Source: Georgenia sp. EYE_87
GTDB taxonomy: Bacteria > Actinomycetota > Actinomycetes > Actinomycetales > Actinomycetaceae
Assembly: GCF_023148685.1 (NCBI RefSeq)
Contig: NZ_JAHXNL010000003.1
Coordinates: forward strand, 288,379-352,378
Direction of reading: 5' to 3'
Length of the DNA: 64,000 bases
Shown: positions 8,183-21,340 of the stretch, one piece after another
How positions within the stretch are numbered: position 1 is the first letter of the stretch
Layout of the letters: each line of letters begins with the position of its first letter
Notes under the pieces: generated by a model
What the model was told of the DNA's origin: nothing
What the model saw: the letters and a program-made list of their open reading frames with translations, nothing else
The model's database searches: none
Made by a program: the position numbers and the translations under genes

Positions 8183-8905
8183 ATGACCTCCCCCCGAAGG
8201 ACCGCCGCCGTCGCCGGCGCCCTCTACCTCGTCACCCACGTCACCTCGATCGCCACGGTCGCGTACGGGCCGGTGCTGGCCGACCCCGGCTACATCACGG
8301 GCGCCGGCCCGGACACCCAGCTGCTCGTGGGCTCGCTCCTCGAGATGGTGCTCGCGATGGCCGTCGTCGGCACCGCCGTCGCCCTCTTCCCCGTCCTGAG
8401 GCGTCAGAGCGAGGGAGTCGCGCTCGGCTACGTGGGGCTGCGTGTCCTGGAGGGCGCCGTCATCGCCGTCGGCGTGGTCCCGCTGCTCGCCGTCGCGACG
8501 CTCCGCCAGGACCTGGCCGGCGCCACCGGGACGGACAGCGCCACGCTCGTCACCGTCGGCCGGTCGCTCGTGGCGCTGCACGAGGGCGCCTTCGTGGTGG
8601 GCCAGGGCTTCGTGATCGGGGTGAGCACGATCCTGACCGCGTACCTGATGTACCGGTCGCACCTCGTGCCGCGGCTCATCCCCGTGCTCGGGCTCGTCGG
8701 CGCCCCGCTCATCCTCGCCGGCCGGACCGCCATGCTCTTCGGGTACGAGCCGAGCCCCGCGCTGACGGCCGCCGTCGTCCTCCCGATCTTCGCCTGGGAG
8801 ATCGGCCTGGCCCTCTACCTGGTCCTCAGGGGCTTCCGGCCCGCGGCCCTGGGACGGCTCGGCCTCGCCCAGAGCGACCCCGGCCGCACGCCGGTGTCCG
8901 CCTAG
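8183..8905 (+). CDS. DUF4386 family integral membrane protein
   Basis: A 240-residue protein with about six to seven hydrophobic helices and the DUF4386 pattern: an N-terminal GALYLVTHVTSI segment, a GLRVLEG motif in the middle, and a conserved YEPSP loop before the last helices. The family is uncharacterised. The gene starts at the ATG at 8183 with AAGGA upstream and follows a promoter filled by TetR operators, so it is the likely target of the divergent regulator. An inducible membrane function such as solute tolerance is a guess. Confidence 0.85.
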   Translation: MTSPRRTAAVAGALYLVTHVTSIATVAYGPVLADPGYITGAGPDTQLLVGSLLEMVLAMAVVGTAVALFPVLRRQSEGVALGYVGLRVLEGAVIAVGVVPLLAVATLRQDLAGATGTDSATLVTVGRSLVALHEGAFVVGQGFVIGVSTILTAYLMYRSHLVPRLIPVLGLVGAPLILAGRTAMLFGYEPSPALTAAVVLPIFAWEIGLALYLVLRGFRPAALGRLGLAQSDPGRTPVSA

Positions 8906-8911
8906 CAGCAG

Positions 8912-8931
8912 GGGTCTTCATCGAAACTTGA
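8912..8931 (-). promoter_or_regulatory. CopR-box-like direct repeat (site 1)
   Basis: On the minus strand this reads TCAAGTTTC-GA-TGAAGACCC, two imperfect copies spaced 11 bp apart. It resembles the TGAAGATTT-NN-TGAAGATTT motif known for CopR of Corynebacterium glutamicum (recalled). It lies 70 bp before the small membrane protein gene at 9001. Confidence 0.5.
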
Positions 8932-9000
8932 CCGCCCCTGCGGCAGATGTCCGGCCGCCCCCACCATGCTGGCTGCATCGACCGGAAAGGCGGCGCGACC

Positions 9001-9141
9001 ATGGCGGAAGCCCTGTGGCTCATCCCCGCGGTGGTGGTCGCCCTGGGTCTCGGCCTCTGGGTGGTCAGCAGGCTGATCCCGGGGCCGCGCGCCAGCACCC
9101 GGGACGGCGAGGGCGACGGGGCGGCTCAGTCGCGCCGGTGA
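9001..9141 (+). CDS. Small single-pass membrane protein (46 aa)
   Basis: A 46-residue product with one transmembrane helix (about residues 3-23) and a charged tail. The ATG at 9001 is preferred over one at 8947 because GAAAGG lies about ten bases upstream and the product then starts right before the helix. It overlaps the 3' end of the convergent sensor kinase by 16 bp. A CopR-like box lies upstream, which suggests, without proving, that it belongs to the copper regulon. No family was recognised. Confidence 0.5.
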   Translation: MAEALWLIPAVVVALGLGLWVVSRLIPGPRASTRDGEGDGAAQSRR

Positions 9142-10259
9142 GGGGCGGGCGCCCGGTCCAGGACGGGCAGCTCCACCGTGAAGACCGCCCCGCGGCCGAC
9201 GCCGTCGCTTCCGACCGTCACCCGCCCGCCGTGGGCGCGGGCGATGGACCGCACGATCGCGAGCCCCACGCCGGAGCCCCCGTGCGCGCGGTCGCGGGCG
9301 GAGTCCGCCCGGTAGAACCGCTCGAACACGTGGGACAGGTGCTCGGCGGCGATACCTGACCCGGTGTCGGCGACGCGCAGCCGGACGACGTCGCCCACGC
9401 GCTCCGCGGCGACCTCCACGCGGCCCCCGGCGGGGGTGTGGCGCAGGGCGTTGTCGAGGAGGTTCGTCAGGAGCTGGCCCAGCCGGTCGGCGTCGGCCAT
9501 CAGGACCGTGCGTCGGGCGTCGTCGGGCGCCCGCACCGCGAGGTCCACCCCCTCGGCGCCGTACCGCCCACTCGCCTGGGTGACGGCCGCGCTGACGAGC
9601 CGCCCCACGTCGACGGGTTCGCGGCGCATGCTCAGCCGGCCCTCCTCCGCCGTCGTGACCAGGCTGATGTCCTCCGCCAGGCGGGCGAGCCGGCCGACCT
9701 GCTCGCGCATCATGAGCAGCGTGTCCGTGTCGGCCTGCTCGAACCCGTCCTGGATCGCCTCGAGGTAGGCGTCCAGGGTCGCCACGGGTGTGCGCATCTC
9801 GTGGGCGAGGTCGCCCAGCAGCTGGGTGCGGGTCTGCTCGATCCGTCCCAGGTCCGTGGCCATGGTGTTGAAGGCGCGAGCGAGGTCGTCGAACTCCTCC
9901 CCCATGCCGACCTCGGGGACCCGGACCGCGTAGTCGCCGTCGGCCACGCGGCCGGCTGCCTGCCGGACGCTCCGCAGGGACCGCGTGATGCGCCGGGTCA
10001 GGAAGACGCTCACGACGACGGACGTGGCGAGGCCCGCGAGGAGGGCGAGGGAGAGCGAGATCGCGGAGGCGTCGTCGAACGCCCGCTCCGCGTGCTCGAC
10101 GACGTTGTCCTCGCCGCCGGCCAGGAGAAGGTGGTCGTGGAACAGCACCGGGCCGATGACGACGGCGACCGCGAGCGCGGTCGAGGCCGCGACCAGGACG
10201 ACCGCGATGATCGCCGCGAGCAGCCGCGCCCCGAGCCCCCAGCGGCGCAGCGGTCTCAC
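9126..10259 (-). CDS. CopS-like membrane sensor histidine kinase
   Basis: A 377-residue kinase starting at a GTG that overlaps the stop of the response regulator by 4 bp. Transmembrane helices at about 10-36 and 66-88 flank a short external loop with a His-Asp-His at 41-43 and His56, suitable metal ligands. HAMP covers about 87-140; the H-box has His153 (LAHEMRTP); N, G1, F and G2 boxes (LLDNALRHT, DTGSGI, FERFYRAD, GGSGVGLAI) follow. The short His-containing loop and the copper-related neighbours suggest copper sensing as in CopS (inference). Confidence 0.88.
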   Translation of the reverse strand: MRPLRRWGLGARLLAAIIAVVLVAASTALAVAVVIGPVLFHDHLLLAGGEDNVVEHAERAFDDASAISLSLALLAGLATSVVVSVFLTRRITRSLRSVRQAAGRVADGDYAVRVPEVGMGEEFDDLARAFNTMATDLGRIEQTRTQLLGDLAHEMRTPVATLDAYLEAIQDGFEQADTDTLLMMREQVGRLARLAEDISLVTTAEEGRLSMRREPVDVGRLVSAAVTQASGRYGAEGVDLAVRAPDDARRTVLMADADRLGQLLTNLLDNALRHTPAGGRVEVAAERVGDVVRLRVADTGSGIAAEHLSHVFERFYRADSARDRAHGGSGVGLAIVRSIARAHGGRVTVGSDGVGRGAVFTVELPVLDRAPAPHRRD

Positions 10260-10981
10260 TCGCCCGTGCCCATCCGGTAGCCGACGCCCCGCACCGTCCT
10301 GATGAACCGGGGCTCGGCGGGCGGATCGCCGAGCTTGCGGCGCACGTGCCCGATGTGGACGTCGACGAGGTGCTCGTCGCCGACCCATCCCGGCCCCCAG
10401 ACGGCCTCCACGAGCTGGTGGCGGCTGAAGACCACGCGGGGGTTGGCCGCCAGGGCCGCGAGGACGTCGAACTCGGTGCGGGTCAGCTCCACCGGCGAGC
10501 CGTCGACGTGCACCTCCCGGCCGCCGACGTCGACGGTGAGGCTGCCGAAGGACAGCGGCTCCGGGACGTCGCGGCCGGCGTCGACCGGTCCCCTCGGACG
10601 GCGCAGCATCGCCCGCACCCGCGCCATCAGCTCGCGGGGGCTGAAGGGCTTGGTGACGTAGTCGTCCGCCCCGACGGACAGCCCGACCAGCTTGTCGACC
10701 TCCTCGGTACGGGCGGTCAGCATCACGATGTAGCAGTCCGAGAAGGTGCGGACGGCTCGGCAGACCTCGATGCCGTCCGTGCCGGGCAGCCCGAGGTCCA
10801 GCACGATCACGCCCGGTTCCCACTCGCGGGCGAGCTCGATCGCCGCGCGACCGTCGCCCGTGACGCGGACGTCGAAGCCGTCACGCCGGAGGTAGCTGGC
10901 CACCACCTGGGCCAGCGGCGTCTCGTCGTCCACGACGAGGACGCGGGTCGCGACCCGCGGGTCGGACGAGGTGTTCGTCAT
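10256..10981 (-). CDS. CopR-like OmpR-family response regulator
   Basis: A 241-residue regulator. The receiver domain has the acidic pair at 18-19, phosphoacceptor Asp62 and Lys111; the C-terminal winged helix ends in RTVRGVGYRMG, typical of OmpR/PhoB DNA-binding domains that bind direct repeats. It is translationally coupled to the kinase gene through a 4-bp GTGA overlap. Six direct-repeat sites of 11-bp period in 8.9-20.1 kb match the corynebacterial CopR motif, so these genes are its probable regulon. The start at the ATG at 10979-10981 has only a close GGAGAG upstream. Confidence 0.9.
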   Translation of the reverse strand: MTNTSSDPRVATRVLVVDDETPLAQVVASYLRRDGFDVRVTGDGRAAIELAREWEPGVIVLDLGLPGTDGIEVCRAVRTFSDCYIVMLTARTEEVDKLVGLSVGADDYVTKPFSPRELMARVRAMLRRPRGPVDAGRDVPEPLSFGSLTVDVGGREVHVDGSPVELTRTEFDVLAALAANPRVVFSRHQLVEAVWGPGWVGDEHLVDVHIGHVRRKLGDPPAEPRFIRTVRGVGYRMGTGE

Positions 10982-11013
10982 CTCTCCATCTTCGTCCGCA
11001 ACGCCGTCCGGTG

Positions 11014-11667
11014 TCAGAGGCTCTCCAACATCTGCTCCATCTCGGCGATCTCGGCCTCCTGGTCGTCGATGATCTTCTCCGCCAGCTCGAGGGCCTGCGG
11101 GTTCTCGCCGTCGGAGAGCTCGGTCTCCGACATCTCGACCGCGCCCTGGTGGTGGGCGATCATCAGCTCGAGGAACCGCCGGTCGAACTCTGCGCCGGAG
11201 AGACCCTCGAGCTCCCCCATCGCCTCCTCCTGGCTCATGCCCTCCATGTCCATGCCGCCGTGCTCCATGTGGCCCGTCCCGCCGGCGGTGGCGGCGTCCT
11301 CCCCCCAGGCCTCGAGCCAGGACGTCATCTGCTCGATCTCGGGACCCTGCGCCGCGGAGATGCCCTCGGCGAGGGTCCGGACCTCCTCGGAGCCGGCGTT
11401 CTCGACCGCGATGTCCGCCATCTCGACGGCGCCGTCGTGATGGACGATCATCATCTGCGCGAACATCGTGTCGGCGTCGTTGTGCGCGGCGTCGACCTCG
11501 CCGTCGGCCGAGGATCCCGGTGACGCGGCGGCGGTCGACTCCCCCGTGGTGGCCGTCGGCTCCGCGGCCGGGCCGGCGGGCTCCTCGGTGCCGCCGCCGC
11601 AGGCGGCGAGGGTCAGGGCCAGGGCCACGGCGCCGGTTGCGGTCCACACACGGTTCTTGAGAGTCAT
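11014..11667 (-). CDS. DUF305 family copper-associated lipoprotein
   Basis: A 217-residue lipoprotein; the lipobox ends in LAAC with Cys23. The DUF305 domain is a four-helix ferritin-like repeat and has its two diagnostic sequences, MIVHHDGAVEMA (His76-His77) and MIAHHQGAVEMS (His172-His173). A Met/His-rich linker (about 132-150) could bind Cu(I). DUF305 proteins are exported and often sit next to copper-handling genes. Here it is directly upstream of the two-component system, with a CopR-like box 130 bp before its start, so outer-face copper binding is the likely role. Confidence 0.9.
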   Translation of the reverse strand: MTLKNRVWTATGAVALALTLAACGGGTEEPAGPAAEPTATTGESTAAASPGSSADGEVDAAHNDADTMFAQMMIVHHDGAVEMADIAVENAGSEEVRTLAEGISAAQGPEIEQMTSWLEAWGEDAATAGGTGHMEHGGMDMEGMSQEEAMGELEGLSGAEFDRRFLELMIAHHQGAVEMSETELSDGENPQALELAEKIIDDQEAEIAEMEQMLESL

Positions 11668-11797
11668 AGGTCCTTCTCGATCGAGATCCCACCCGCGGTG
11701 CCGGTGAGATCGGGGTTCTCCGGGGCGCGGCAGAGCGTCACCTCGTGCCACGCCCTCGAGTCAACAAGGTGGCTGCGGGCGTCGCCAGCCACGAGCC

Positions 11798-11817
11798 CGA
11801 ACTTCATCGAGTCTTCA
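11798..11817 (-). promoter_or_regulatory. CopR-box-like direct repeat (site 2)
   Basis: Minus strand TGAAGACTC-GA-TGAAGTTCG: two TGAAG cores exactly 11 bp apart, oriented towards the DUF305 gene that starts at 11667. Confidence 0.6.
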
Positions 11818-11830
11818 CAGAAGGGACCCG

Positions 11831-13029
11831 TCAGCCGCCGCCGGCCGCCCTCACCGCGTCGACGTACTCCTCCGGCACGGGCGGCTTGCCCGAGGCGGAG
11901 GCCCCCCACTCGTGCTCCTCCGTGTACAGCCAGACGTACTCGTCCGTCTCCGCCAGCGCGTCCCGCACGAGCTCGCCGACGGTCTCCGGCGCCAGCACCT
12001 CGTAGCCAGACAGCTGGTCGCGGTCGTACACCGCCAGGGCCGAGGAGACGGCGGCGTCATAGTCCTCCGGCGTGAGGCCGGGCGCCAGGAACCCGCCGTC
12101 CCCCTCCAGGAAGGCCCCGTCCTGCCAGACCCGGAAGGCCCGGTAGTCGGCGGCGCTGCGCGCGTCGTAGAACTCGCCGCCGTCGATCACCCGGGCCCGG
12201 TCGTCGGCGGCGTCGACTCCGCGACCCAGGCCAGGTCGTTCCAGTGCAGCCCCGCCTCGGCAGGCCCGGGCGACGACGCCGGCGCGGAGAACCACGGGCC
12301 GAAGAGCACCATGACCTCCAGTCCCGGCCAGGCGTCGGCCATCGCGGCCATCACCTGGGCGCCGCGCCGGCGGACGAGGTCCCGCGCCTCCTCGGGCTGC
12401 AGCCCGGGCGTGGCACCGTCGGTGGCGGAGAAGGTCCAGGGGTCGTGGCCCTCCCCGTAGTTCCACGGGGACGAGCCCTCGCCGTAGAACTCGTTGTCGA
12501 ACCAGACCCCGACGTAGGGGTCGCCGCTCTCGCGCATCGCCTCGGCGAGCGCGGCGCTGTTCGCGGCGATCCCGTCCCACAGGGCGTCGTCGGACCAGTC
12601 GAGCTCGTCGAGCATGGCGATCCTGACCCAGTTGCGCTCGAGGTCGCCGAGGTCGGCCGGCAGCTCCGAGACGTCGCGGAGCAGCGCGGACCCGTCGACG
12701 GCGCGGGGCGAGAAGATGTCGACGGACGCCGGGACGCGCAGGACGATGCCGTCGAAGGGGAGCCGGGTGTACGCCGCCGGGTCGGCCGCCACCTCCTGGG
12801 GGTACGGGATGTCCTGGCCGTACTTGATCAGGTGGCGCTCCACGGCCCCGGGGCCCGGGCGGACCTGGTCCGACGACGGCCGGTCGCCCGGGGACGACGG
12901 CTGGCCCCCCGGGGGCGACGGCTGGCACGCAGCCACCGTCACGGCGAGGCCGCCCGCGAGGGCCGCCAGTCGCGCGCGGCGGCGGCGCGCCGCCGAGCCG
13001 CCCTGGTCCGCCGGCGGTCCACCGGTCAC
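11831..13029 (-). pseudogene. Frameshifted lipoprotein of unknown function
   Basis: Two overlapping frames together make one protein of about 399 residues. The first frame (13029 to 12187) starts at a GTG overlapping the previous stop (GTGA), has a signal peptide ending in VAAC, a Pro/Ser-rich linker and a globular domain (LPFDGIVLRVPASVDIF, GVWFDNEFYGEG, EVMVLFGPWFSAP) reminiscent of TIM-barrel glycoside-hydrolase-like proteins. At about 12225 the frame switches; the second frame (RVIDGGEFYDARS to the end at 11831) clearly continues the protein. The shift is a real mutation or an assembly error. Function is unknown; it is coupled to the CapK-like gene. Confidence 0.7.
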
Positions 13030-14330
13030 GGCGGGGGCTGCCACTGGCTGACGACGATCTGCCGCTTGCCGGACGCGAGGAGCGGGACCTCGTCGACGTA
13101 CTCGACCACGACGTCGGCGTCGCGCCCGAGCACCCTGAGGAACTCCTCCCGGATGCGCCCGTCGCGGCGGGCGTCCCGGTCCGCGTTGAGCCGGAGCGTG
13201 TACGCCCCCGGGCCCGTCTGGACGAGCTGGTACTGCCTGAGGTCGTGGTCGGTGAGCTCGGGGACGGCCATGGGGTTGATGCTGCGACCGGCGGTGTCGA
13301 AGAGGCTGTCGAGCGTGCGTCCGGCGACGGTGGCGAGCACGGTGTCGTCGACCTCGCCGTGCGCGTCCACCGCGAAGCTGCCCACGTCGCCGGTGTCGTA
13401 CCGGATGAAGGGCATGGCCCGGTTGTGCAGGTCGGTCACCACGATGCGCCCCTCGTGGCCGGGTGGCGCGGGCAGGTCCGCGTCGTGCTGGAGGATCTCG
13501 ACGGCGTAGCCGGCGACGTTGACCCGGTAGCCCGGGCTCCCCGGTCGCTCCTGCGCCAGGATGCCGTTCTCGGTGTTGGAGTACCGCGCGACGACCGGGC
13601 GGCCGAACGTCGCGGACGCGCCGGCCCGCAGGAGCTCGGTGGGCGCCTCGCCGACGGCGACGACGGCGTCCACGTGCCCGGTCACGCTCGTGCCGTCGCG
13701 GGCCGCCGCACGGCACAGCGACTCCAGGGCCGAGGCGTAGCCGAGGAGGGCGACCGGGCTCCGCCGTCGCCGGATCGCCTCGAGGAGCTCTCGCGCGCGG
13801 TCCTCGTCGAGACCTCGCACCTCGACCGGGACGATGCCCTCCAGGAGCTGCCGGAGGCGTCCTTTGCGGTACTGCCCGTCCCAGATCCGGAGGTAGTACA
13901 TCGGTCCACCGAGGCGGTACCCGGCCAGCTGGGCGTGGGCGATGGTGTCGGCCCGGTTGCGCATCACCTTGTGGTCGTCCCACAGCGCCGTGAACGGGGT
14001 GCCGGTCGAGCCCGAGGTGCGGTGCGGGTGGAGCCTCTCGCGGTCGTACCCGGAGGCGAGCATCGCCGGGCCGTTCTCGCGGAACGTCGACTTGTCCACC
14101 ACCGGGAACGACTCGAGCGTGTCCCCGTCGTGGGCGGCGTAGAACGGCGTGGTGGCGCGGGTGTGCCGGAGGATGCGGGCCAGCCGGGCCCGACGCGTCG
14201 CGACGGCGGCCGGGCTCCCGGGGTCGTGGTGGAGCGCGGTGATCCCGGCGACGGCGCTCGCCACCGGTCGCCCGCGCAGCCGGTCCAGCGTCCAGAACGC
14301 TGTTCGCCGGGCGAGGGCGAGGGGGTCCAT
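13026..14330 (-). CDS. CapK/PaaK-like adenylate-forming enzyme
   Basis: A 434-residue member of the phenylacetate-CoA ligase / CapK branch of the acyl-adenylating superfamily. It has the phosphate loop TSGSTGTPFTA, the YSNTENG segment and the FIRYDTGD motif. The start at the ATG at 14328-14330 follows GGAGC. It probably activates a carboxylic acid through an adenylate; the family includes proteins for cell-surface polysaccharide or aromatic-acid metabolism, so the substrate is open. Its stop overlaps the start of the lipoprotein gene (GTGA), so the two are co-translated. A CopR-like box lies 83 bp upstream. Confidence 0.85.
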   Translation of the reverse strand: MDPLALARRTAFWTLDRLRGRPVASAVAGITALHHDPGSPAAVATRRARLARILRHTRATTPFYAAHDGDTLESFPVVDKSTFRENGPAMLASGYDRERLHPHRTSGSTGTPFTALWDDHKVMRNRADTIAHAQLAGYRLGGPMYYLRIWDGQYRKGRLRQLLEGIVPVEVRGLDEDRARELLEAIRRRRSPVALLGYASALESLCRAAARDGTSVTGHVDAVVAVGEAPTELLRAGASATFGRPVVARYSNTENGILAQERPGSPGYRVNVAGYAVEILQHDADLPAPPGHEGRIVVTDLHNRAMPFIRYDTGDVGSFAVDAHGEVDDTVLATVAGRTLDSLFDTAGRSINPMAVPELTDHDLRQYQLVQTGPGAYTLRLNADRDARRDGRIREEFLRVLGRDADVVVEYVDEVPLLASGKRQIVVSQWQPPP

Positions 14331-14412
14331 GGGTGCTCCAGCCGGCAGGACGGTCGGGGGGAGTTCACACCGACCGTATCCGCGGGGCACCGCGCCGATC
14401 CCGGTTTGCCGG

Positions 14413-14432
14413 TGAAGATTTCATGAAGCCCC
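14413..14432 (+). promoter_or_regulatory. CopR-box-like direct repeat (site 3), best match
   Basis: TGAAGATTT-CA-TGAAGCCCC has a perfect first half and TGAAG at the same 11-bp spacing. It lies between the redoxin and CapK-like genes, on the strand opposite to both. Confidence 0.6.
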
Positions 14433-14439
14433 GCCGGGG

Positions 14440-15075
14440 TCAGAGACGGGAGACGACCTCCTCGAGCAGCTGGGCCGGCTCGAGCCACATCGAGGGGTAC
14501 TCCCCCTGCCACAGCTGGTTGCCCTCGGCGTCGATCAGGACGAACCCGTGCCCGGGGAGACCCTCGTGCATGCCGGTGCCGAGCGTGCCGTAGGCCTCGG
14601 AGACGGTGCCGTCGTCGAGGAGGTACGGCGTGGTCGCGCCGTAGCGCTGCATGTCTGCCAGCATCTGCTCGGCCGTGTTCATCACGATCGGCAGCACGGT
14701 GATGCCGGCCTCGGCGAACCCGGGCTCCTTCTCGATCTCCACCATCTGGACCGTGCAGGACGCGCAGCCGGCGCCCTCGTTGAAGTACAGCACCACGGGC
14801 GAACCACGAAGGTCGGAAAGGCTGACGGTTCCGCCGTCGGTGGTCGGCAGCGTGAAGTCGGGCGCGACCCGTGTGCCCTCGGAGGACACCTGGCGGGAGC
14901 TGGCCAGCCCGAACGCGACGACGGCGACCACGACGAGCAGACCGACCACCCAGGCGATGCGCCGGGTGCGGGCACGCCGCGCGGCCGCTGCGGTCTCGGC
15001 CCGGGCCCGGGCGGCCCGGGCCTCCATCTTCCGCTCCTTGGCGGTCGGGCGGGGCGTGGTGGCGGCGGAGGTCAT
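14440..15075 (-). CDS. Membrane-anchored redoxin (TlpA/AhpC-TSA type)
   Basis: A 211-residue thiol-disulfide protein. A basic coiled-coil-like cytosolic segment (1-38) is followed by a transmembrane helix (about 40-59) and an extracytoplasmic redoxin domain. The active-site Cys104-Ala-Ser-Cys107 lies in YFNEGAGCASC. The start overlaps the stop of the CcdA gene by 4 bp (ATGA). CcdA passes electrons across the membrane to such proteins, so the pair makes a reducing relay at the outer face of the membrane, as used for cytochrome c or copper-site maturation and repair of exported thiols. Confidence 0.88.
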   Translation of the reverse strand: MTSAATTPRPTAKERKMEARAARARAETAAAARRARTRRIAWVVGLLVVVAVVAFGLASSRQVSSEGTRVAPDFTLPTTDGGTVSLSDLRGSPVVLYFNEGAGCASCTVQMVEIEKEPGFAEAGITVLPIVMNTAEQMLADMQRYGATTPYLLDDGTVSEAYGTLGTGMHEGLPGHGFVLIDAEGNQLWQGEYPSMWLEPAQLLEEVVSRL

Positions 15076-16034
15076 CGGGGCAGTCCTTCCTGGCGGTGCT
15101 CGTCGTGCTGGTCGCTCGCAGTGGCCGGCTCGTGGTCGTGGGGCTCGTGGCAGGAGGCACCGCGAGCGTCGTCCCGGCGGCGGTCGCGCAGGGTGACGAC
15201 GACGAAGGCGCCGGCCAGGGCCATCAGCGCCAGGCCGAGGACCGGCTCGGGGACCGGGGCGACCAGCACCTGGAACCGGCCGAGGACGTCGGCGAGCCAC
15301 TCGCCGACCGCGGTCTGCATCGCCGTGCCGCCGGTCATGGTCCCGCTGCCGGCGAGCGTGATGACCCAGACACCCATGACCGTGAACCCGATCGCGACGG
15401 CGAGGTTCACCGTGCTGGTGACCAGCACCCGCGAGCCGAGGCGAAGCTTGACCAGCCTGGCGCGGAAAAGCGTGCGCTCACCGAGGCGGGTCCTGTCCCA
15501 CACCAGCGCCATGACGAAGAGGGGGAACACCATGCCGAAGACGTACGCCAGTCCCAGCACCACGCCGCCGGCCGCCGATCCCGAGAGCGCGGAGAGAGCC
15601 ATGACGCCGGCGAGGACGGGGGCGCAGCAGCTCGAGGCGATCCCGGAGAAGACCCCGAGGGCGAAGAAGCTGGCGGTGTCCCCGCGGGAGGTGTCCGGCG
15701 CCCGCAGGAAGCTGGGCAGCGACCACATCCTCCCGGAGAGGGAGAGCACGGCCAGGGCGATCATGAGCAGGCCGCCGGCCCAGTACAGCTGGGCGTGGTA
15801 CTGGTTGATGGCCCCGGCGATCATGCTGACGCCCAGGGTGATCGGGACGAGCACGAGCGCGAGGCCTGCGGCGAACACGAACGTCAGTGGCAGCAGCCGC
15901 CACAGCCGGTTCTTCACCGCCCCCGCGAGGTAGCTCGGCGCCAGGAACACGATGCAGCACGGGGCGAACAGCGCAACGCCGCCGGCGAAGAAGGCGGCCA
16001 GGACGCTGCCGGTCGCCAGGAGCTCGGTACCCAC
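15072..16034 (-). CDS. CcdA-type cytochrome c biogenesis / thiol transporter
   Basis: A 320-residue membrane protein with about six to seven helices and the paired membrane cysteines expected of CcdA/DsbD-like electron transporters: Cys26-Cys27 in FAPCCIVF and SSCCAPV near residue 155. The long soluble C-terminal tail is His-rich (SCHEPHDHEPATASDQHDEH), which may bind metal and is unusual for the family. It is translationally coupled to the redoxin and lies 6 bp after the glutaredoxin-like gene, so the three probably form one redox operon. Confidence 0.9.
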   Translation of the reverse strand: MGTELLATGSVLAAFFAGGVALFAPCCIVFLAPSYLAGAVKNRLWRLLPLTFVFAAGLALVLVPITLGVSMIAGAINQYHAQLYWAGGLLMIALAVLSLSGRMWSLPSFLRAPDTSRGDTASFFALGVFSGIASSCCAPVLAGVMALSALSGSAAGGVVLGLAYVFGMVFPLFVMALVWDRTRLGERTLFRARLVKLRLGSRVLVTSTVNLAVAIGFTVMGVWVITLAGSGTMTGGTAMQTAVGEWLADVLGRFQVLVAPVPEPVLGLALMALAGAFVVVTLRDRRRDDARGASCHEPHDHEPATASDQHDEHRQEGLPR

Positions 16035-16040
16035 GGTCGC

Positions 16041-16346
16041 CTACTCCCTGACCGCTGCCGGAGCCGTGAGCTCCCGGGCCCGTCCGGAGGTGAGGAGCTT
16101 CTCGAGCTTGCGGCGCGGCAGCCGCCCCGAGCTGAAGAAGCTGCCGCCCACGAGCACCAGCGGATACATCGCCGGGCGGTGCACCGCGAGGAGCTCGCGC
16201 CCCTCGGCGGAGTCGACGTCGACCGTGCAGACCGCGAGCCTGAACCGCTCGGCGAGGGTGCTCAGCGCCCGCTCGGCGTCGTCGCAGAGGTGACAGGCGG
16301 GTGCGTGCACCACCGTCACCTCGGCCCCACGGTCGTCCTGGTCCAC
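16041..16346 (-). CDS. Glutaredoxin-like protein (DUF836 type)
   Basis: A 101-residue thioredoxin-fold protein with the active site Cys18-His-Leu-Cys21 (APACHLCDDAE) and the cis-proline YPLVLVGG. The GTG at 16344-16346 is preferred since GAGGGGG lies five bases upstream; an in-frame ATG near 16406 would add 20 residues. It has no signal peptide and so probably works in the cytosol, as the thiol donor or regulator for the CcdA-redoxin relay downstream. Confidence 0.8.
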   Translation of the reverse strand: MDQDDRGAEVTVVHAPACHLCDDAERALSTLAERFRLAVCTVDVDSAEGRELLAVHRPAMYPLVLVGGSFFSSGRLPRRKLEKLLTSGRARELTAPAAVRE

Positions 16347-16441
16347 GTCGGCCCCCTCGGTCAGCCCCTGCCACGCTCCGCGGGGTCGTCCCCGCCCGAG
16401 AAGCATCGGGCCCCAGTGCCGGTCGGACGATGGCCGTTCCG

Positions 16442-16461
16442 TCAAGAAATGGTGAAGGCGC
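16442..16461 (+). promoter_or_regulatory. CopR-box-like direct repeat (site 4)
   Basis: TCAAGAAAT-GG-TGAAGGCGC keeps the 11-bp period. It lies about 95 bp upstream of the glutaredoxin-like gene, on the opposite strand. Confidence 0.45.
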
Positions 16462-16507
16462 CTTCCGAAAAGGGACGAGTCGGGCACGGCGGTGCCCACG
16501 CACGCGG

Positions 16508-16537
16508 CGGCCCTCCACCGTCGACGGTGGAGGGCCG
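16508..16537. terminator. 30-bp perfect palindrome after copB
   Basis: Positions 16508-16522 and 16523-16537 are perfectly complementary, with TCGA at the centre. It lies 18 bp beyond the stop of the P-type ATPase gene and before the next transcription unit, so a terminator or insulator without a T-run is likely. Confidence 0.65.
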
Positions 16538-16554
16538 GCACGCCGGAGACCCGG

Positions 16555-18879
16555 TCAGCGCCGCACGAGCTCTGCCTCGTCCCGGCGGGACGCCTGGGGG
16601 CTCGGGACCTGCGCCGCACCGTGCGCGGCGGCGGTCGAGGCCTCGGGGCTGAGATCGAGCCGCCGCAGGAGCTGGGCGTTGGCGGCGACGACGATGGTCG
16701 AGGCGGACATGAGCAGCGCGCCGATCTCCATGGGCAGGACGAACCCCACGGGGGCGAGGATGCCGGCGGCCAGCGGGACCGCGGCGATGTTGTAGCCGGC
16801 CGCCCACCACAGGTTCTGCTTCATCTTCCGGTACCCGGCCCGGGAGAGCTGGATGACGGAGAGCACCGAGCGCGGGTCGTCGGAGGCGAGGATGACGCCG
16901 GCCGAGGCGATCGCGACGTCCGTGCCGGCGCCGATGGCGATGCCGACGTCGGCCTGGGCGAGGGCGGGCGCGTCGTTCACGCCGTCGCCGACCATGGCGA
17001 CGGTGCGGCCCTGCCGCTGCAGCTCGAGAACCTTCTCGCTCTTGTTCTCGGGCCGGACGCCGGCGAAGACCTGGTCGATGCCGAGCTCGGCCGCGACGGC
17101 CCGGGCGACCGGTTCGGCGTCGCCGGTGATCATCACGACGTGGAGGCCGAGCGCGTGCAGGGCGTCGACCGCCTCGCGGGACTCCTGGCGCACCTCGTCC
17201 TCCAGGGCCAGCGCGCCGGCGACCTGCCCGTCGACGAGCACGTGCAGGACGATGGCGCCCCGGTCGGACCACGCCGCCGTCTGCGGCAGCGGCTCCAGGC
17301 CGTGCTCGGCGAGCAGGTTGGGTCCGCCGACGGCGACCCGGCGCCCGCCCGCGGTGGCGGTGACGCCGACGGCGGTCGAGGCGGAGAAGTCGCTCGCGCG
17401 GGGCACGTCCAGGCCCCGGTCCCTCGCCGCGCCGGTAATCGCCCGGGCCAGCGGGTGCTCGCTGTCGGACTCGGCGGCCGCGGCGAGCGCGAGGAGCTCG
17501 TCCTGGCCCAGGCCCGTGGTCTCGATGTCGTGCAGCGCGGGCTCGCCCTTGGTGAGGGTGCCGGTCTTGTCGAAGAGGACGGCGTCGACGGTGCGCATGC
17601 GTTCCAGCGCCGCGCGGTCCTTGACCAGAACGCCACCGCGGGCAGCGCGCTCGGTCGAGATCGACACCACGAGGGGGATCGCGAGGCCGAGGGCGTGGGG
17701 GCAGGCGATGACCAGGACGGTGATCGCCCGGACGATCGCGAAGTCGGGGCTGCCGACGGCGGACCACACCGCGACCGTGATGATCGCCGCGATCAGCGCG
17801 AACCAGAACAGCCAGCCGGCGGCCCGGTCGGCGAGGAGCTGGGCGCGGGTGGTGGAGGACTGCGCCTCGGCGACCAGCCGCTGGATGCCGGCGAGGGCGG
17901 TGTCGTCGCCGACGGCGTCGACCTGCACCCGCAGCGCGTTGTCGGTGGCCACGGTGCCGGCGACGACGTGCGCGCCGACCTCGCGACGCACCGGGCGGGA
18001 CTCGCCGGTGATCATGGACTCGTCGACGTCCGCGGCGCCGTCGACCACCGTCCCGTCGGCGGGGATGCGCCCACCCGGGCGGACGATGACGACGTCGCCG
18101 AGCCGCAGGTCCGCGGGGGAGACGGTGACGACGCGGTCGCCGTCGACCTTCTCCGCCTCGTCCGGCAGGAGGGCGGCGAGGGCGTCCAGGGCCGAGGAGG
18201 TCTTGGCGAGCGAGCGCATCTCGAGCCAGTGGCCGAGCAGCATGATGACGACCAGGAGCGCGAGCTCCCACCAGAAGTCGAGGTCGTGCGCCAGCACGCC
18301 GAGCGTGGCGCCCCACGAGGCGACGAAGGCGACGGTGATCGCCATGCCGATCAGGAGCATCATCCCGGGCTTGCGGGCGCGGACCTCCGCGACGGCGCCG
18401 GTGAGGAACGGCCGGCCGCCCCAGGCGAAGATGACCGTGCCCAGGACCGGCGCGACGTACTCGAGGCCGGGGATCTCGGGCAGGGAGTACCCGAGCAGGT
18501 CCGCGAACATGCCGCTGAGCAGCACCGTGGGGACCGCGAGGATGAGGTTGATCCAGAAGAGGCGGCGGAACATCCCGACGTGGTCGCCGTGGCCGGCGTG
18601 CCCGCCGTGGGCGTCGTCGCCGACATGGCCGGCGTGCCCGCCGTGCCCCGCGTGGGCGTCGTGCCCGCCGTGGGCGTCGTCGCCGACATGGCCGGCGTGA
18701 TCGTCGTCGCCGTCGCCGTGGTGGCCGGTTCTCACCGCGGCCGGCGTGTGATGCCCGGCCTGGGCCAGCTGCTCGGCGTCGTGGCCGCCGTGGCGGTCGT
18801 GCGCCGGCGACACCTCGCCGGCATCGCCGTGGTCGCCGTGGTCGCCGTGGTGACCGTGCCTGTGCTCGGTGCCGTTCAT
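16555..18879 (-). CDS. copB: CopB-type copper P-ATPase with His-rich N-terminus
   Basis: A 774-residue P1B ATPase. The first 100 residues contain 25 histidines instead of a CxxC heavy-metal domain. Catalytic elements are TGES (291-294), the transmembrane CPH motif (393-395) that defines the CopB/P1B-3 copper branch, Asp437 in DKTGTLT, SEHP in the nucleotide domain and the hinge GDGVNDAPAL. The ATG at 18877-18879 has AGGAGG seven bases upstream. Predicted role is copper export. A CsoR-like operator and a CopR-like box lie in its promoter region. Confidence 0.93.
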   Translation of the reverse strand: MNGTEHRHGHHGDHGDHGDAGEVSPAHDRHGGHDAEQLAQAGHHTPAAVRTGHHGDGDDDHAGHVGDDAHGGHDAHAGHGGHAGHVGDDAHGGHAGHGDHVGMFRRLFWINLILAVPTVLLSGMFADLLGYSLPEIPGLEYVAPVLGTVIFAWGGRPFLTGAVAEVRARKPGMMLLIGMAITVAFVASWGATLGVLAHDLDFWWELALLVVIMLLGHWLEMRSLAKTSSALDALAALLPDEAEKVDGDRVVTVSPADLRLGDVVIVRPGGRIPADGTVVDGAADVDESMITGESRPVRREVGAHVVAGTVATDNALRVQVDAVGDDTALAGIQRLVAEAQSSTTRAQLLADRAAGWLFWFALIAAIITVAVWSAVGSPDFAIVRAITVLVIACPHALGLAIPLVVSISTERAARGGVLVKDRAALERMRTVDAVLFDKTGTLTKGEPALHDIETTGLGQDELLALAAAAESDSEHPLARAITGAARDRGLDVPRASDFSASTAVGVTATAGGRRVAVGGPNLLAEHGLEPLPQTAAWSDRGAIVLHVLVDGQVAGALALEDEVRQESREAVDALHALGLHVVMITGDAEPVARAVAAELGIDQVFAGVRPENKSEKVLELQRQGRTVAMVGDGVNDAPALAQADVGIAIGAGTDVAIASAGVILASDDPRSVLSVIQLSRAGYRKMKQNLWWAAGYNIAAVPLAAGILAPVGFVLPMEIGALLMSASTIVVAANAQLLRRLDLSPEASTAAAHGAAQVPSPQASRRDEAELVRR

Positions 18880-18905
18880 CGCGTAGGCCTCCTGCCTTCC
18901 CCTCA

Positions 18906-18934
18906 TTGATACCCCCATGGGGTATGCGGCACAA
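18906..18934 (-). promoter_or_regulatory. copB promoter enclosing a CsoR-like operator
   Basis: On the minus strand TTGTGC (18934-18929) and TATCAA (18911-18906) are 17 bp apart. The palindrome at 18909-18925 covers most of the spacer and enters the -10 hexamer, so a bound repressor would exclude polymerase. Confidence 0.6.
18909..18925. promoter_or_regulatory. CsoR-like copper operator
   Basis: ATACCCC-CAT-GGGGTAT is a perfect 7-3-7 palindrome of the G-tract type bound by the CsoR copper repressor family. No csoR gene is in this window. It ends 30 bp before the copB start. Confidence 0.72.
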
Positions 18935-18966
18935 CCCCCCGCCGCCCCGGCGTGTTCCCGATTCAC

Positions 18967-18986
18967 CAGAATTCGTCATTTCTTCA
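18967..18986 (-). promoter_or_regulatory. CopR-box-like direct repeat (site 5)
   Basis: Minus strand TGAAGAAAT-GA-CGAATTCTG, oriented towards copB and placed just upstream of its predicted -35. The rest of the 414 bp between copB and the superoxide dismutase gene shows nothing else I can name. Confidence 0.5.
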
Positions 18987-19293
18987 TACATCCCACCCCG
19001 CGGACGCTGCCCGCAGCGGGTCGCTCCGGGGCGACGGCGAGGAGGGGCCTGCGGGCGCTTGAGCGCAGTGCGCCGTCGTCGGGGCGGGACCTGCCGTTGG
19101 ACGAAGGCTTCGGGCGATCAGCAGCCTGCAACGCGTCGGTGACACCCCGATGACGATCGGGTCATAGCCGCCAGGACAGAATGTGGGCGCCGAGGACCGG
19201 CGCGACATCGGGGTCGCGCACCGGGACGACCGCCGGGCGGGCGCTCCCCGTCCTGGGCGGAGCCGCCTCGGCTGACCACCGAAGGAGGAAGTC

Positions 19294-19905
19294 ATGCGGA
19301 GAGCAGTGATGGCCAGCGCCGCATCTGTCGGCATGCTGCTGGCGGCGGGCGGGATGCTGAGCTTCGGCCAGGACCACGGCCGGGGGGACGGTCACGGTCA
19401 GCGCCACGGCGGCTGGGACCTGTCGGGGACCTTCCACGACGCCGACGGCGACTCGCTCGGCAGGGTCCGGATCGACACCGACGATGACGAGAGCCGCGTC
19501 TCGGTACGGGTGCGCGACCTCGAGCCGGGCTTCCACGCCTTCCACGTGCACGCGATCGGGAAGTGCGAGCCGGACAGCGCGAACCCGTCCGACCCGAAGC
19601 AGGTGGGCGACTTCCTCTCGGCCGGCGGCCACCTCGGGGCCGGCGAGGCGGACCACGGCGAGCACATCGGGGACCTGCCGTCGCTGTTCGTCGGCGAGGA
19701 CGGGCGGGCGACGCTGACGTTCGTGACGGACGCCTTCGACGAGGACGACCTGCTCGACGACGACGGCAGCGCCGTCATGATCCACGCGGGCCGGGACAAC
19801 TTCGCCAACATCCCGGAGCGCTACGCACCCGACGGCCCGGACGCGACCACCCGCGCCACCGGGGACGCCGGTGGGCGGGTGGCCTGCGCCGTCGTCGACG
19901 ACTAG
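19294..19905 (+). CDS. sodC: Secreted Cu/Zn superoxide dismutase
   Basis: A 203-residue exported enzyme with an N-terminal signal peptide (about 1-25) and a short His/Gly-rich segment. Metal ligands are all in place: His84 and His86 (FHVHAIG), His113, His121 or His124 with Asp127 (HIGDLP) and His164 (MIHAGRDN). Cys91 and Cys198 can form the conserved disulfide. It dismutates superoxide outside the cytoplasm using copper. An AAGGAGG sits about seven bases upstream of the ATG. A location next to copper export and thiol-relay genes fits protection of the envelope during copper or oxidative stress. Confidence 0.92.
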   Translation: MRRAVMASAASVGMLLAAGGMLSFGQDHGRGDGHGQRHGGWDLSGTFHDADGDSLGRVRIDTDDDESRVSVRVRDLEPGFHAFHVHAIGKCEPDSANPSDPKQVGDFLSAGGHLGAGEADHGEHIGDLPSLFVGEDGRATLTFVTDAFDEDDLLDDDGSAVMIHAGRDNFANIPERYAPDGPDATTRATGDAGGRVACAVVDD

Positions 19906-19925
19906 GCCCGTCCGCCGTACGACCT

Positions 19926-19988
19926 CGCCCCACCGGGGGCCACGAGGATCCTCACCGCCGAAGGAGTTGCGGTGCTCCCGGTGGGGCG
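19926..19988 (+). terminator. Compound hairpin after sodC
   Basis: A perfect 12-bp outer stem (19926-19937 with 19977-19988) encloses a perfect 6-bp inner stem (19953-19958 with 19969-19974). It lies 20 bp after the sodC stop and has no T-run. It is a terminator or another structured RNA; an AAGGAG is exposed in the inner loop. Confidence 0.55.
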
Positions 19989-20108
19989 GTCGCGCCCGGC
20001 GCACCGAGCCACGGTCCTGCCCACACTCCCGCTCCCCCACCCGCAGACATGCAGACGCCGCCGGCCACTTCCTCTCGCGGACGTCCTGAACCCTCGACCA
20101 CGGTTCTA

Positions 20109-20128
20109 TGAAGGTTTGACGAAGAGCG
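20109..20128 (+). promoter_or_regulatory. CopR-box-like direct repeat (site 6)
   Basis: TGAAGGTTT-GA-CGAAGAGCG, on the same strand as the NlpC/P60 gene and about 10 bp upstream of its possible -35 element. Confidence 0.5.
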
Positions 20129-20138
20129 TTATTGAACC

Positions 20139-20167
20139 GTGACATCGCACGGCCTGGTTTGTAGCGT
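20139..20167 (+). promoter_or_regulatory. Possible promoter of the riboswitch-NlpC/P60 unit
   Basis: GTGACA (20139-20144) and TAGCGT (20162-20167) are 17 bp apart, and the leader starting about 20174 would contain the complete riboswitch. Confidence 0.4.
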
Positions 20168-20204
20168 GACGATGCTTCTAGGGCAGCCCGTCCGGAAGTC
20201 CTTG

Positions 20205-20366
20205 GACGCAGTCCGAACCCTGCCGGCGTCCAGGTCTCATCTGTGCACCGACGAGCGGCAGGGGCGGGGGAACCAGTGCCTGTGGCCCACCGGGGCCTTG
20301 GGGTGAAGTGCCGTGCGCGGCACAGGGGAATCTCTGCCCTGACCCGACAGCTCACCCCGCAGGAGC
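20205..20366 (+). promoter_or_regulatory. Cyclic di-AMP (ydaO/yuaA-type) riboswitch
   Basis: The leader carries the conserved stretches of actinobacterial ydaO riboswitches in order: a GAACCCTGCCGG start, GGGGGAACCA, GGGGTGAAG, and the 3' block CCCGACAGCTCACCCCGCAG (20343-20362). It ends shortly before the ribosome-binding site of a secreted NlpC/P60 hydrolase, the gene class most often controlled by this element in actinobacteria. High c-di-AMP normally turns expression off. The exact 5' boundary is approximate. Confidence 0.82.
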
Positions 20367-20380
20367 CAGAGAGGTAGTCC

Positions 20381-21178
20381 GTGAGCTCCCGCAACGCCCC
20401 CGCGCGCCATCGCGCGGAAGTCCGTCCCTCAACCCCACTCTCTCTTCTCGCCGACAACATCACTCCGAGCACCCGGCGCGGCTTCGCCGCTGTAGCGTCC
20501 TCCGGCCTCGTGCTCACTATGGCGGCGACCAGCGCTACCGCGGCTGGGACTGCCGATGCGGCACTGCCGGCGGTGGACTCGACCGCCTCCGTGGCGGAAG
20601 CAGCCACGGCCATGCTGACCACGCCGGCTGTCTCGGTCCCGGCGGACGTCGAGTGGAAGGTCGACACCGTCACCGCTGAGGCGGCTCCGCCCCCGGAGCC
20701 TGGGCCGGTGCTCGAGCCCGAACCGTCCGTCGATCCGGAACCTGTCGCGACGCGGGCGGGCGCTGCCTCACGTGCCGGGGAGCGCGGCGCGCCGGCCAGC
20801 ACCGCTCCATACACCTCTGCCGAGGTCGCACCGGCTCCGGCCACGTCGGGAAGCGCGATCGTCGACTACGCCCGCCAGTTCCTGGGCACGCCGTACGTGT
20901 GGGGTGGAACCACACCGGCCGGTTTCGACTGCTCCGGCTTCACCCTGTACGTGTTCTCGCAGTTCGGCATCAGCCTGCCTCGGACCTCCGGCGCGCAGGC
21001 GACGGCCGGGACCCGGGTCTCAGCCGCGGAGGCACGGCCGGGCGACCTGGTCACGTGGCCGGGACACGTGGGGATCTACACGGGTAACGGGAACAACATC
21101 GCGGCACGTCAGCCGGGCACCCCGCTGACCGAAGGACCCATCTACCACTCGAGTCCGACGTTCATCCGCGTCAGCTGA
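20381..21178 (+). CDS. Secreted NlpC/P60 peptidoglycan endopeptidase
   Basis: A 265-residue protein starting at a GTG with GAGAGG upstream. A late signal peptide (about 34-57, ending AATSATA) is followed by a Pro/Glu-rich linker and a C-terminal NlpC/P60 domain with catalytic Cys184 (GFDCSGFT) and His229 (PGHVGIY). It would cut stem peptides of the wall (gamma-D-Glu to diamino-acid bond), as in Rpf-interacting hydrolases. Expression is predicted to respond to c-di-AMP through its leader, tying wall remodelling to turgor or wall stress. Confidence 0.9.
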   Translation: MSSRNAPARHRAEVRPSTPLSLLADNITPSTRRGFAAVASSGLVLTMAATSATAAGTADAALPAVDSTASVAEAATAMLTTPAVSVPADVEWKVDTVTAEAAPPPEPGPVLEPEPSVDPEPVATRAGAASRAGERGAPASTAPYTSAEVAPAPATSGSAIVDYARQFLGTPYVWGGTTPAGFDCSGFTLYVFSQFGISLPRTSGAQATAGTRVSAAEARPGDLVTWPGHVGIYTGNGNNIAARQPGTPLTEGPIYHSSPTFIRVS

Positions 21179-21203
21179 GCGGCACTGACGTCCCACCGGT
21201 GAC

Positions 21204-21232
21204 GGCGGTCCGCCCCGAGGGGGCGGGCCGCC
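21204..21232. terminator. Bidirectional hairpin between NlpC/P60 gene and nrdF
   Basis: A 13-bp stem with one G-T pair and a 3-base loop (21204-21216 with 21220-21232) lies between these convergent genes. Confidence 0.7.
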
Positions 21233-21340
21233 ACCGCCGCAACGCTCCTGGACGCCCCTACCGGCGGGCAGGCGCCCCACTCGCGTGCGGCGCGATCCGC
21301 CGCCGCAGGCCGGCCGGCCGCCGCCGCCCGCCCGTCGCCC

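Follow-up and report, generated by a model that had tools for sequence, protein, structure and literature searches.

Predicted CopR boxes outline a putative copper-stress regulon that may extend to a c-di-AMP riboswitch-controlled wall hydrolase in Georgenia sp. EYE_87

How far can a single copper-sensing two-component system reach, and could it govern repair of the cell envelope together with copper export? This question is raised by a copper locus of Georgenia sp. EYE_87, contained in a stretch of 64,000 nucleotides (contig NZ_JAHXNL010000003.1, positions 288,379 to 352,378 of the forward strand) that we call the window. Six predicted binding sites of the response regulator CopR, here named CopR boxes, surround genes for a CopRS pair, a DUF305 protein, the copper ATPase CopB, a glutaredoxin-CcdA-redoxin set and an NlpC/P60 peptidoglycan hydrolase (Table 1). 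We consider it very probable that the locus is a CopRS copper-stress regulon with CopR boxes upstream of several operons. The sequences, with their geometry and conservation, are observed directly; from them we infer the binding by CopR, the direction of control, the copper response and the identity of the MtrA and CsoR sites discussed below.

The regulator pair and the six boxes

The identities given for CopR and CopS in Table 1 refer to the proteins of plasmid pLEW279b, not to C. glutamicum CopR itself; the cop region of this plasmid is described as 97% similar to its C. glutamicum counterpart (available text of PMC3140484). When pLEW279b CopR was compared with the whole genome, the window CopR was the best of 12 matches (59% identity, against 48% for the next). 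In a tree of regulators, window and pLEW279b CopR fall within a CopR clade of 32 rows (support 98/93), with the other regulators of this genome outside it; long branches were flagged only outside this clade. The loop of window CopS (LFHDH...HAE) has three histidines as in the printed C. glutamicum loop, while the methionines are not kept. The pLEW279b protein contains, without a single change, the loop published for C. glutamicum CopS as printed in PMC3353115. Thus identity, best match, tree position and sensor loop all identify the regulator as CopR, in agreement with a preliminary description of this DNA that had recognized a CopRS-like system.

The six boxes are direct repeats of a TGAAG-like core with a gap of six nucleotides (N6) and hence an 11-bp period; Table 1 gives their 16-bp cores. 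Two of them fit TGAAG-N6-TGAAG perfectly, three with one mismatch and one with two. The published C. glutamicum CopR site, TGAAGATTTgaTGAAGATTT, reported as the sole site in that genome (available text of PMC3140484), is indeed the motif that the preliminary description had named. Set beside the published site written as TGAAGATTTnnTGAAGATTT, the window boxes keep both TGAAG cores and the period, and the ATTT after the second half is not kept. As an aside, pLEW279b CopR is annotated with a start that precedes its box; a CopR of 240 residues would start after it. pLEW279b also has a second exact box (6273-6288 of our locus L175) between the genes of a four-helix copper protein and YdhK, although C. 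glutamicum has been reported with a single CopR site.

A weight matrix was built from 76 sites with at most one mismatch, taken from 22 loci of other genomes and plasmids, and this genome was excluded. Its top six matches in the window are exactly the six boxes (22.0-31.5 bits); the seventh scores 14.1 bits, and the highest score in ten Markov-1 random sequences of 64 kb is 14.6 bits. All six repeats of the preliminary description, with their 11-bp period, are therefore present and ranked on top by sites from outside this genome. The spacing is also specific. Across the 22 CopR loci (440 kb), direct TGAAG pairs occur 36 times at a 6-bp gap and at most 4 times at any other gap between 0 and 25, whereas in 1.25 Mb from 73 loci with more remote regulators the pairs numbered 5, 7 and 9 at gaps of 6, 5 and 7. 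Among nine genomes of the genus the exact pattern was found 39 times: 35 matches belong to the five genomes with CopS (4, 10, 7, 10 and 4) and the four genomes without CopS contribute 4 in total (1, 2, 0 and 1).

Recurrence of the boxes and the NlpC/P60 leader

Boxes were counted at the same genes in 37 loci including the window, 34 of them with a CopR or CopS match and three (L197, L198 and L201; G, C and L are our labels for genomes, contigs and loci) fetched for their box. A box had to reach 18 bits and lie at most 300 bp from the start of a first-in-operon gene. We left out the near-copies or fragments L053, L055, L056, L058, L185, L187 and L200, and also L059, L196 and L199. Boxes stand at 15 of 21 DUF305 genes, 8 of 9 glutaredoxin genes, 10 of 14 NlpC/P60 genes, 8 of 9 four-helix copper protein genes, 5 of 6 Lgt genes and 3 of 5 TlpA genes, all three of the latter in box-fetched loci. 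The counts are 15/31 for CopR, 9/23 for P-type ATPase, 4/13 for multicopper oxidase and 1/6 for M23 genes, and the background to all of these figures is 26 in 3000 windows. With L197, L198 and L201 removed, the figures are 8/12 for NlpC/P60, 7/8 for the four-helix protein, 14/20 for DUF305 and 0/2 for TlpA. Because the matrix was trained on many of these loci, and because a box between divergent genes is credited to both, the tally is a description and not a test.

Box orientation also recurs: all 8 boxes at glutaredoxin genes are reversed like box 4, all 10 at NlpC/P60 genes are forward like box 6, and 11 of 15 at DUF305 and 7 of 9 at P-type ATPase genes are forward like boxes 2 and 5, respectively. 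Boxes 2, 4, 5 and 6 thus have counterparts at the same gene in related loci, among which gene order varies. Most of the boxes recur at these genes in relatives, so that export, thiol repair and a wall-cutting enzyme are probably all turned on by one copper sensor. This supports the preliminary proposal of a regulon joining these three functions; in the loci searched, boxes 1 and 3 are seen at their genes in the window only. In L052, L071, L182, L184 and L195, boxes also precede genes for Lgt (prolipoprotein diacylglyceryl transferase), a hint that the regulon of these relatives includes lipoprotein maturation.

The leader of the NlpC/P60 gene is more elaborate. Box 6 is separated by 3 bp from an MtrA-like repeat, GTTATTGAACCGTGACA, whose right half fits the S. 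coelicolor consensus and whose left half fits it partly; the cyclic di-AMP (c-di-AMP) riboswitch and the hydrolase gene follow. A sigma-70 consensus scan of 8700-21300 found no promoter, so the proposed -35 and -10 were placed by comparing sister leaders. Simple folding of this leader yielded no additional signal (z -0.57).

The nine genus genomes contain 23 c-di-AMP riboswitches, 22 of them above the cut-off. Five of the 23 leaders carry a CopR box on the same strand (25.1-35.9 bits), and all five belong to copper loci (G000, the genome studied here, G001, G003 and twice G005); one of these riboswitches is below the cut-off, and the matrix had been trained on two of the five boxes. The remaining 18 leaders have no box within 450 nt (best score 7.2 bits). 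An Rfam scan of 22 related loci returned 8 with a riboswitch above the gathering score, and all 8 have a box before it (L050, L054, L071, L183, L186, L190, L197 and L198, the last two fetched for their box). L071 has no MtrA-like repeat, and L189 has box and repeat with no riboswitch match. A strict pattern of the stacked promoter was found in 3 of 396 genomes of the order, all of this family; it is narrow and misses known variants. In the present genome (assembly of 38 contigs, 99% complete) this riboswitch is the only c-di-AMP riboswitch found and the next two relatives of the NlpC/P60 protein are 41-45% identical, which may leave the copper-box copy without a housekeeping counterpart.

In C. 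glutamicum, MtrA and high c-di-AMP both repress nlpC (PMC9960051, available text). We are inclined to think that in the copies inside copper islands a copper two-component regulator has been wired onto a wall-homeostasis promoter, which would make a three-input gate on a lytic enzyme, the inputs being copper, envelope or osmotic state, and c-di-AMP. Counted from the proposed start, box 6 is centred at about -56 to -60, which would fit an activator.

The most likely mechanism is the following. CopS would sense extramembrane copper, probably via the histidines of its short loop, and phosphorylate CopR. CopR would then bind the paired TGAAG repeats, spaced by one turn of the helix, in front of DUF305-copR-copS, glutaredoxin-CcdA-redoxin, copB and NlpC/P60, and perhaps also in front of the genes for the small membrane protein and the CapK-like enzyme. 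In this way copper-activated CopR would turn on export by CopB, copper binding by DUF305, extracytoplasmic thiol repair and the gated wall hydrolase. At the NlpC/P60 promoter the CopR box, providing copper activation, would be stacked on the MtrA-like repeat over the -35 and on the c-di-AMP riboswitch of the leader. Copper would raise production of the hydrolase, which high c-di-AMP could nevertheless turn off. That wall and lipoprotein genes are among the targets could be explained by damage that copper does to envelope enzymes. Work on NlpE of E. coli reportedly concerns copper and lipoproteins (PMC6593411).

Competing explanations

Several observations weigh against the CopR regulon. Boxes 1 and 3 have no counterpart in the related loci searched. 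The CapK-like gene has relatives in 3 of 151 family genomes (counting this one), and none of the four other copies shows a box above 10.7 bits. No box (18 bits, 300 bp) was found at copR in L182, L183, L184, L186 and L188, nor at CopR of L057, L077, L078, L079, L177, L181, L193 and L194. CopS (E <=1e-75) is present in 14 of 200 genomes of the family, and the tight motif TGAAGNNTYGRTGAAG occurs in 11 of these 14 against 22 of the 186 without CopS. This association favours the regulon (Fisher p 1.3e-7, kinship ignored), while the 22 genomes with the motif and no CopS count against it. Of the 26 tight sites in genomes with CopS, a hand count places 17 at most 15 kb from a CopS and 9 farther away. 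Related genomes and shared islands are, moreover, not independent samples. Genome-wide, the pattern with at most one mismatch has 62 matches against 49 for the reversed-pattern control and is therefore near background. Finally, a comparison of nine reference multicopper oxidases with positions 5-25 kb of the window found no such enzyme, which is a target gene and not a defining part of a CopRS regulator.

The isolation of boxes 1 and 3 is what one would expect if these two boxes and the one in the NlpC/P60 leader were inherited or chance leftovers of island rearrangement, with only the copper genes being controlled, and a single ancestor may have given rise to the NlpC/P60 copies in the islands of the genus. 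We regard this as unlikely, because the boxes at NlpC/P60 keep their strand and their distance to the aptamer: 98-111 nt in the genus, 89-109 nt in five leaders of other genera and 197 nt in L071. The MtrA-like repeat follows the box by 3 or 4 bp in the five boxed genus leaders and by 14-15 bp, roughly an extra turn of the helix, in L183, L186, L197 and L198. In addition, the gene order around boxed NlpC/P60 genes differs among loci.

The boxes might also be bound by another OmpR-family regulator of the same specificity, with CopR sharing or ignoring them. One candidate is the regulator of a second CopRS-like pair beside a CsoR-like gene (G000:C11:24464-27023, our locus L059). An exact box lies there between the CsoR-like gene and the CopR-like regulator, a point against our main reading; the same arrangement exists in G001 (L196), and sites of OmpR-family regulators are often 11-bp direct repeats (PMC3353115, available text). 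We find this quite improbable: the C11 regulator shares just 48% identity with pLEW279b CopR and does not belong to the CopR clade, the boxes gather at copRS rather than at the C11 pair, and the published box is that of CopR. In the genome at large, the matrix was run on 30 of the 62 one-mismatch matches and on 11 longer stretches. Within these, the best scores beyond the island are 21.2 bits (C7:73759) and 20.0 bits (C11, beside the paralogous pair), followed by 19.8 and 19.1 bits (C23) and 18.3 bits (C37), all three inside open frames. The C7 site (G000:C7:73759-73774) is an exact match with no clear target gene, and could be a further regulon member.

Chance matches to a short pattern, which the closeness of 62 and 49 would favour, can be rejected as the origin of the six boxes with hardly any reserve, since five of those 62 matches fall inside 11.2 kb (Poisson P ~5e-7), as do two of the 4 exact ones in this genome of 4.35 Mb, and since matrix ranking and spacing specificity contradict it. 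A CopR regulon is thus the reading that we retain.

The gene inventory and known copper systems

Table 1. Features of the copper locus, in window coordinates
Feature	Positions	Strand	Sequence or match	Remark
CopR box 1	8916..8931	-	TCAAGTTTCGATGAAG	29.9 bits; ~70 bp before the 46-residue membrane-protein frame, candidate target
Small membrane protein, one helix, 46 residues	9001..9141	+	open reading frame from sequence; no Pfam match
copS, sensor kinase	9126..10259	-	Pfam (HAMP, HisKA, HATPase); pLEW279b CopS 44.5% over 362 residues
copR, OmpR-type response regulator	10256..10981	-	Pfam; pLEW279b CopR 59.7% over 226 residues
DUF305/CopM-like secreted protein	11014..11667	-	PF03713, NCBIfam CopM	first in likely DUF305-copR-copS operon
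CopR box 2	11802..11817	-	TGAAGACTCGATGAAG	31.5 bits; upstream of DUF305
Lipoprotein-like gene	11831..13032	-	list of open reading frames	two frames, 11831-12928 and 12187-13032
CapK/PaaK-like adenylate-forming enzyme	13026..14330	-	weak matches below cut-off: NCBIfam DVU1553 family, AMP-binding E 0.005
CopR box 3	14413..14428	+	TGAAGATTTCATGAAG	26.8 bits; ~83 bp before CapK-like gene, candidate target
Redoxin (AhpC/TSA)	14440..15075	-	Pfam; 72% over 153 residues to p110066 redoxin
CcdA-like membrane protein	15072..16034	-	69% over 323 columns to annotated p110066 CcdA
Glutaredoxin-like protein	16041..16349	-	PF05768	true start a few codons inside
CopR box 4	16442..16457	+	TCAAGAAATGGTGAAG	23.4 bits; before glutaredoxin-CcdA-redoxin, in reverse orientation to the gene
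copB, copper-translocating P-type ATPase	16555..18882	-	TIGR01511, Pfam; pLEW279b CopB 65% over 654 residues	start codon ~18879
CsoR-operator-like palindrome	18909..18925		ATACCCCCATGGGGTAT	~30 bp before copB, between box 5 and copB
CopR box 5	18971..18986	-	TGAAGAAATGACGAAT	22.0 bits; upstream of copB
sodC, Cu/Zn superoxide dismutase	19294..19905	+	PF00080	divergent from copB
CopR box 6	20109..20124	+	TGAAGGTTTGACGAAG	30.6 bits; upstream of NlpC/P60 leader
MtrA-like repeat	20128..20144	+	matches in 23 of 23 genus riboswitch leaders (expression written after inspection; L219 match further upstream)	over proposed -35
Proposed -35	20139..20144	+	GTGACA	comparison with sister leaders
Proposed -10	20162..20167	+	TAGCGT	17 bp after GTGACA; comparison with sister leaders
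c-di-AMP riboswitch (ydaO/yuaA)	20236..20378	+	RF00379, 54.5 bits	gathering score 38
NlpC/P60 peptidoglycan hydrolase	20381..21178	+	PF00877, E 4.5e-24

Among the neighbours, the preliminary description had omitted sodC and the c-di-AMP riboswitch. Box 2 precedes the DUF305-copR-copS genes, whose spacing suggests an operon. The sodC gene has no box within 300 bp, box 5 being near copB and about 300 bp from sodC. tblastn searches of 47 related loci found no relative of SodC, of a DUF4386 protein or of the small membrane protein. At 0.001 the CcdA-like protein matched no Pfam family. Near 12200 a frameshift or a sequencing error interrupts the lipoprotein-like gene, and its two pieces, searched separately, had no Pfam match.

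The palindrome upstream of copB was the sole one of its kind in one search of the window, while a looser search gave 5 matches against 6.3 expected, not above chance. Similar palindromes precede copB in L050, L183, L184, L186 and L192, and an HMA-copB pair in L182. By its resemblance to the CsoR consensus it is a candidate CsoR operator; two CsoR-family genes exist in this genome. With such a CsoR-like operator at copB, cytoplasmic copper may be a second input.

The closest characterized system is the CopRS regulon of C. glutamicum (Schelder et al. 2011, PMC3140484, of which pLEW279b, NC_009129, is a close copy), whose CopR and CopS are orthologous to those of the window. As far as its available text goes, both share the box and its period, copB and a thioredoxin-like protein within the regulon. 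They differ in that C. glutamicum has one reported site, at copR, and a multicopper oxidase, whereas the window has six boxes and no oxidase found between 5 and 25 kb; neither DUF305 nor CcdA nor a wall hydrolase is listed in the regulon as described there. In the C. glutamicum nlpC leader (PMC9960051), as in the window, the NlpC/P60 gene stands behind a c-di-AMP riboswitch and an MtrA-like repeat; the window adds the upstream CopR box, and the word copper has 0 occurrences in the available text of that paper. In the open-licence literature searched, we found no description of CopR boxes at NlpC/P60 genes or of copper control atop a c-di-AMP riboswitch.

The copper plasmids p110066 of Cellulomonas, pMSPYR101 of Mycolicibacterium gilvum and pP27867_1 of Cryobacterium resemble the window in carrying CopRS, DUF305 and a P-type ATPase, and also carry wall enzymes (C40, M15, M23 and Rip-type). 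p110066 further shares the glutaredoxin-CcdA-redoxin set and the order box, riboswitch, C40. The three Rip genes of pMSPYR101 have no box within 300 bp. These actinobacterial plasmids differ from the window by the presence of a multicopper oxidase and by gene order. In the cyanobacterium Synechocystis, copMRS reportedly joins DUF305/CopM and a copper copRS in one operon, like the window (PMC4335983). The preliminary description had spoken of members not previously linked to copper, and this is right in part only: DUF305 matches the model of the CopM metallochaperone and has this Synechocystis precedent, and tlpA belongs to the C. glutamicum CopR regulon (available text of PMC3140484).

Its regulator, sensor and site class the system as CopRS, and what appears to be new is the size of the regulon and the stacked promoter. 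If the reading is true, wall repair, thiol repair and, in relatives, Lgt-dependent lipoprotein maturation would be an integral part of copper tolerance, and copper stress would be connected with the control of a peptidoglycan hydrolase by c-di-AMP. The 18 box-free sister leaders provide natural controls, by which this connection of copper damage with wall remodelling and a second messenger can be tested directly. Given the one site reported for C. glutamicum, a multi-operon CopR regulon would extend the known kind: the one-site copper switch of that species would become a multi-operon envelope-repair regulon with a predictive box.

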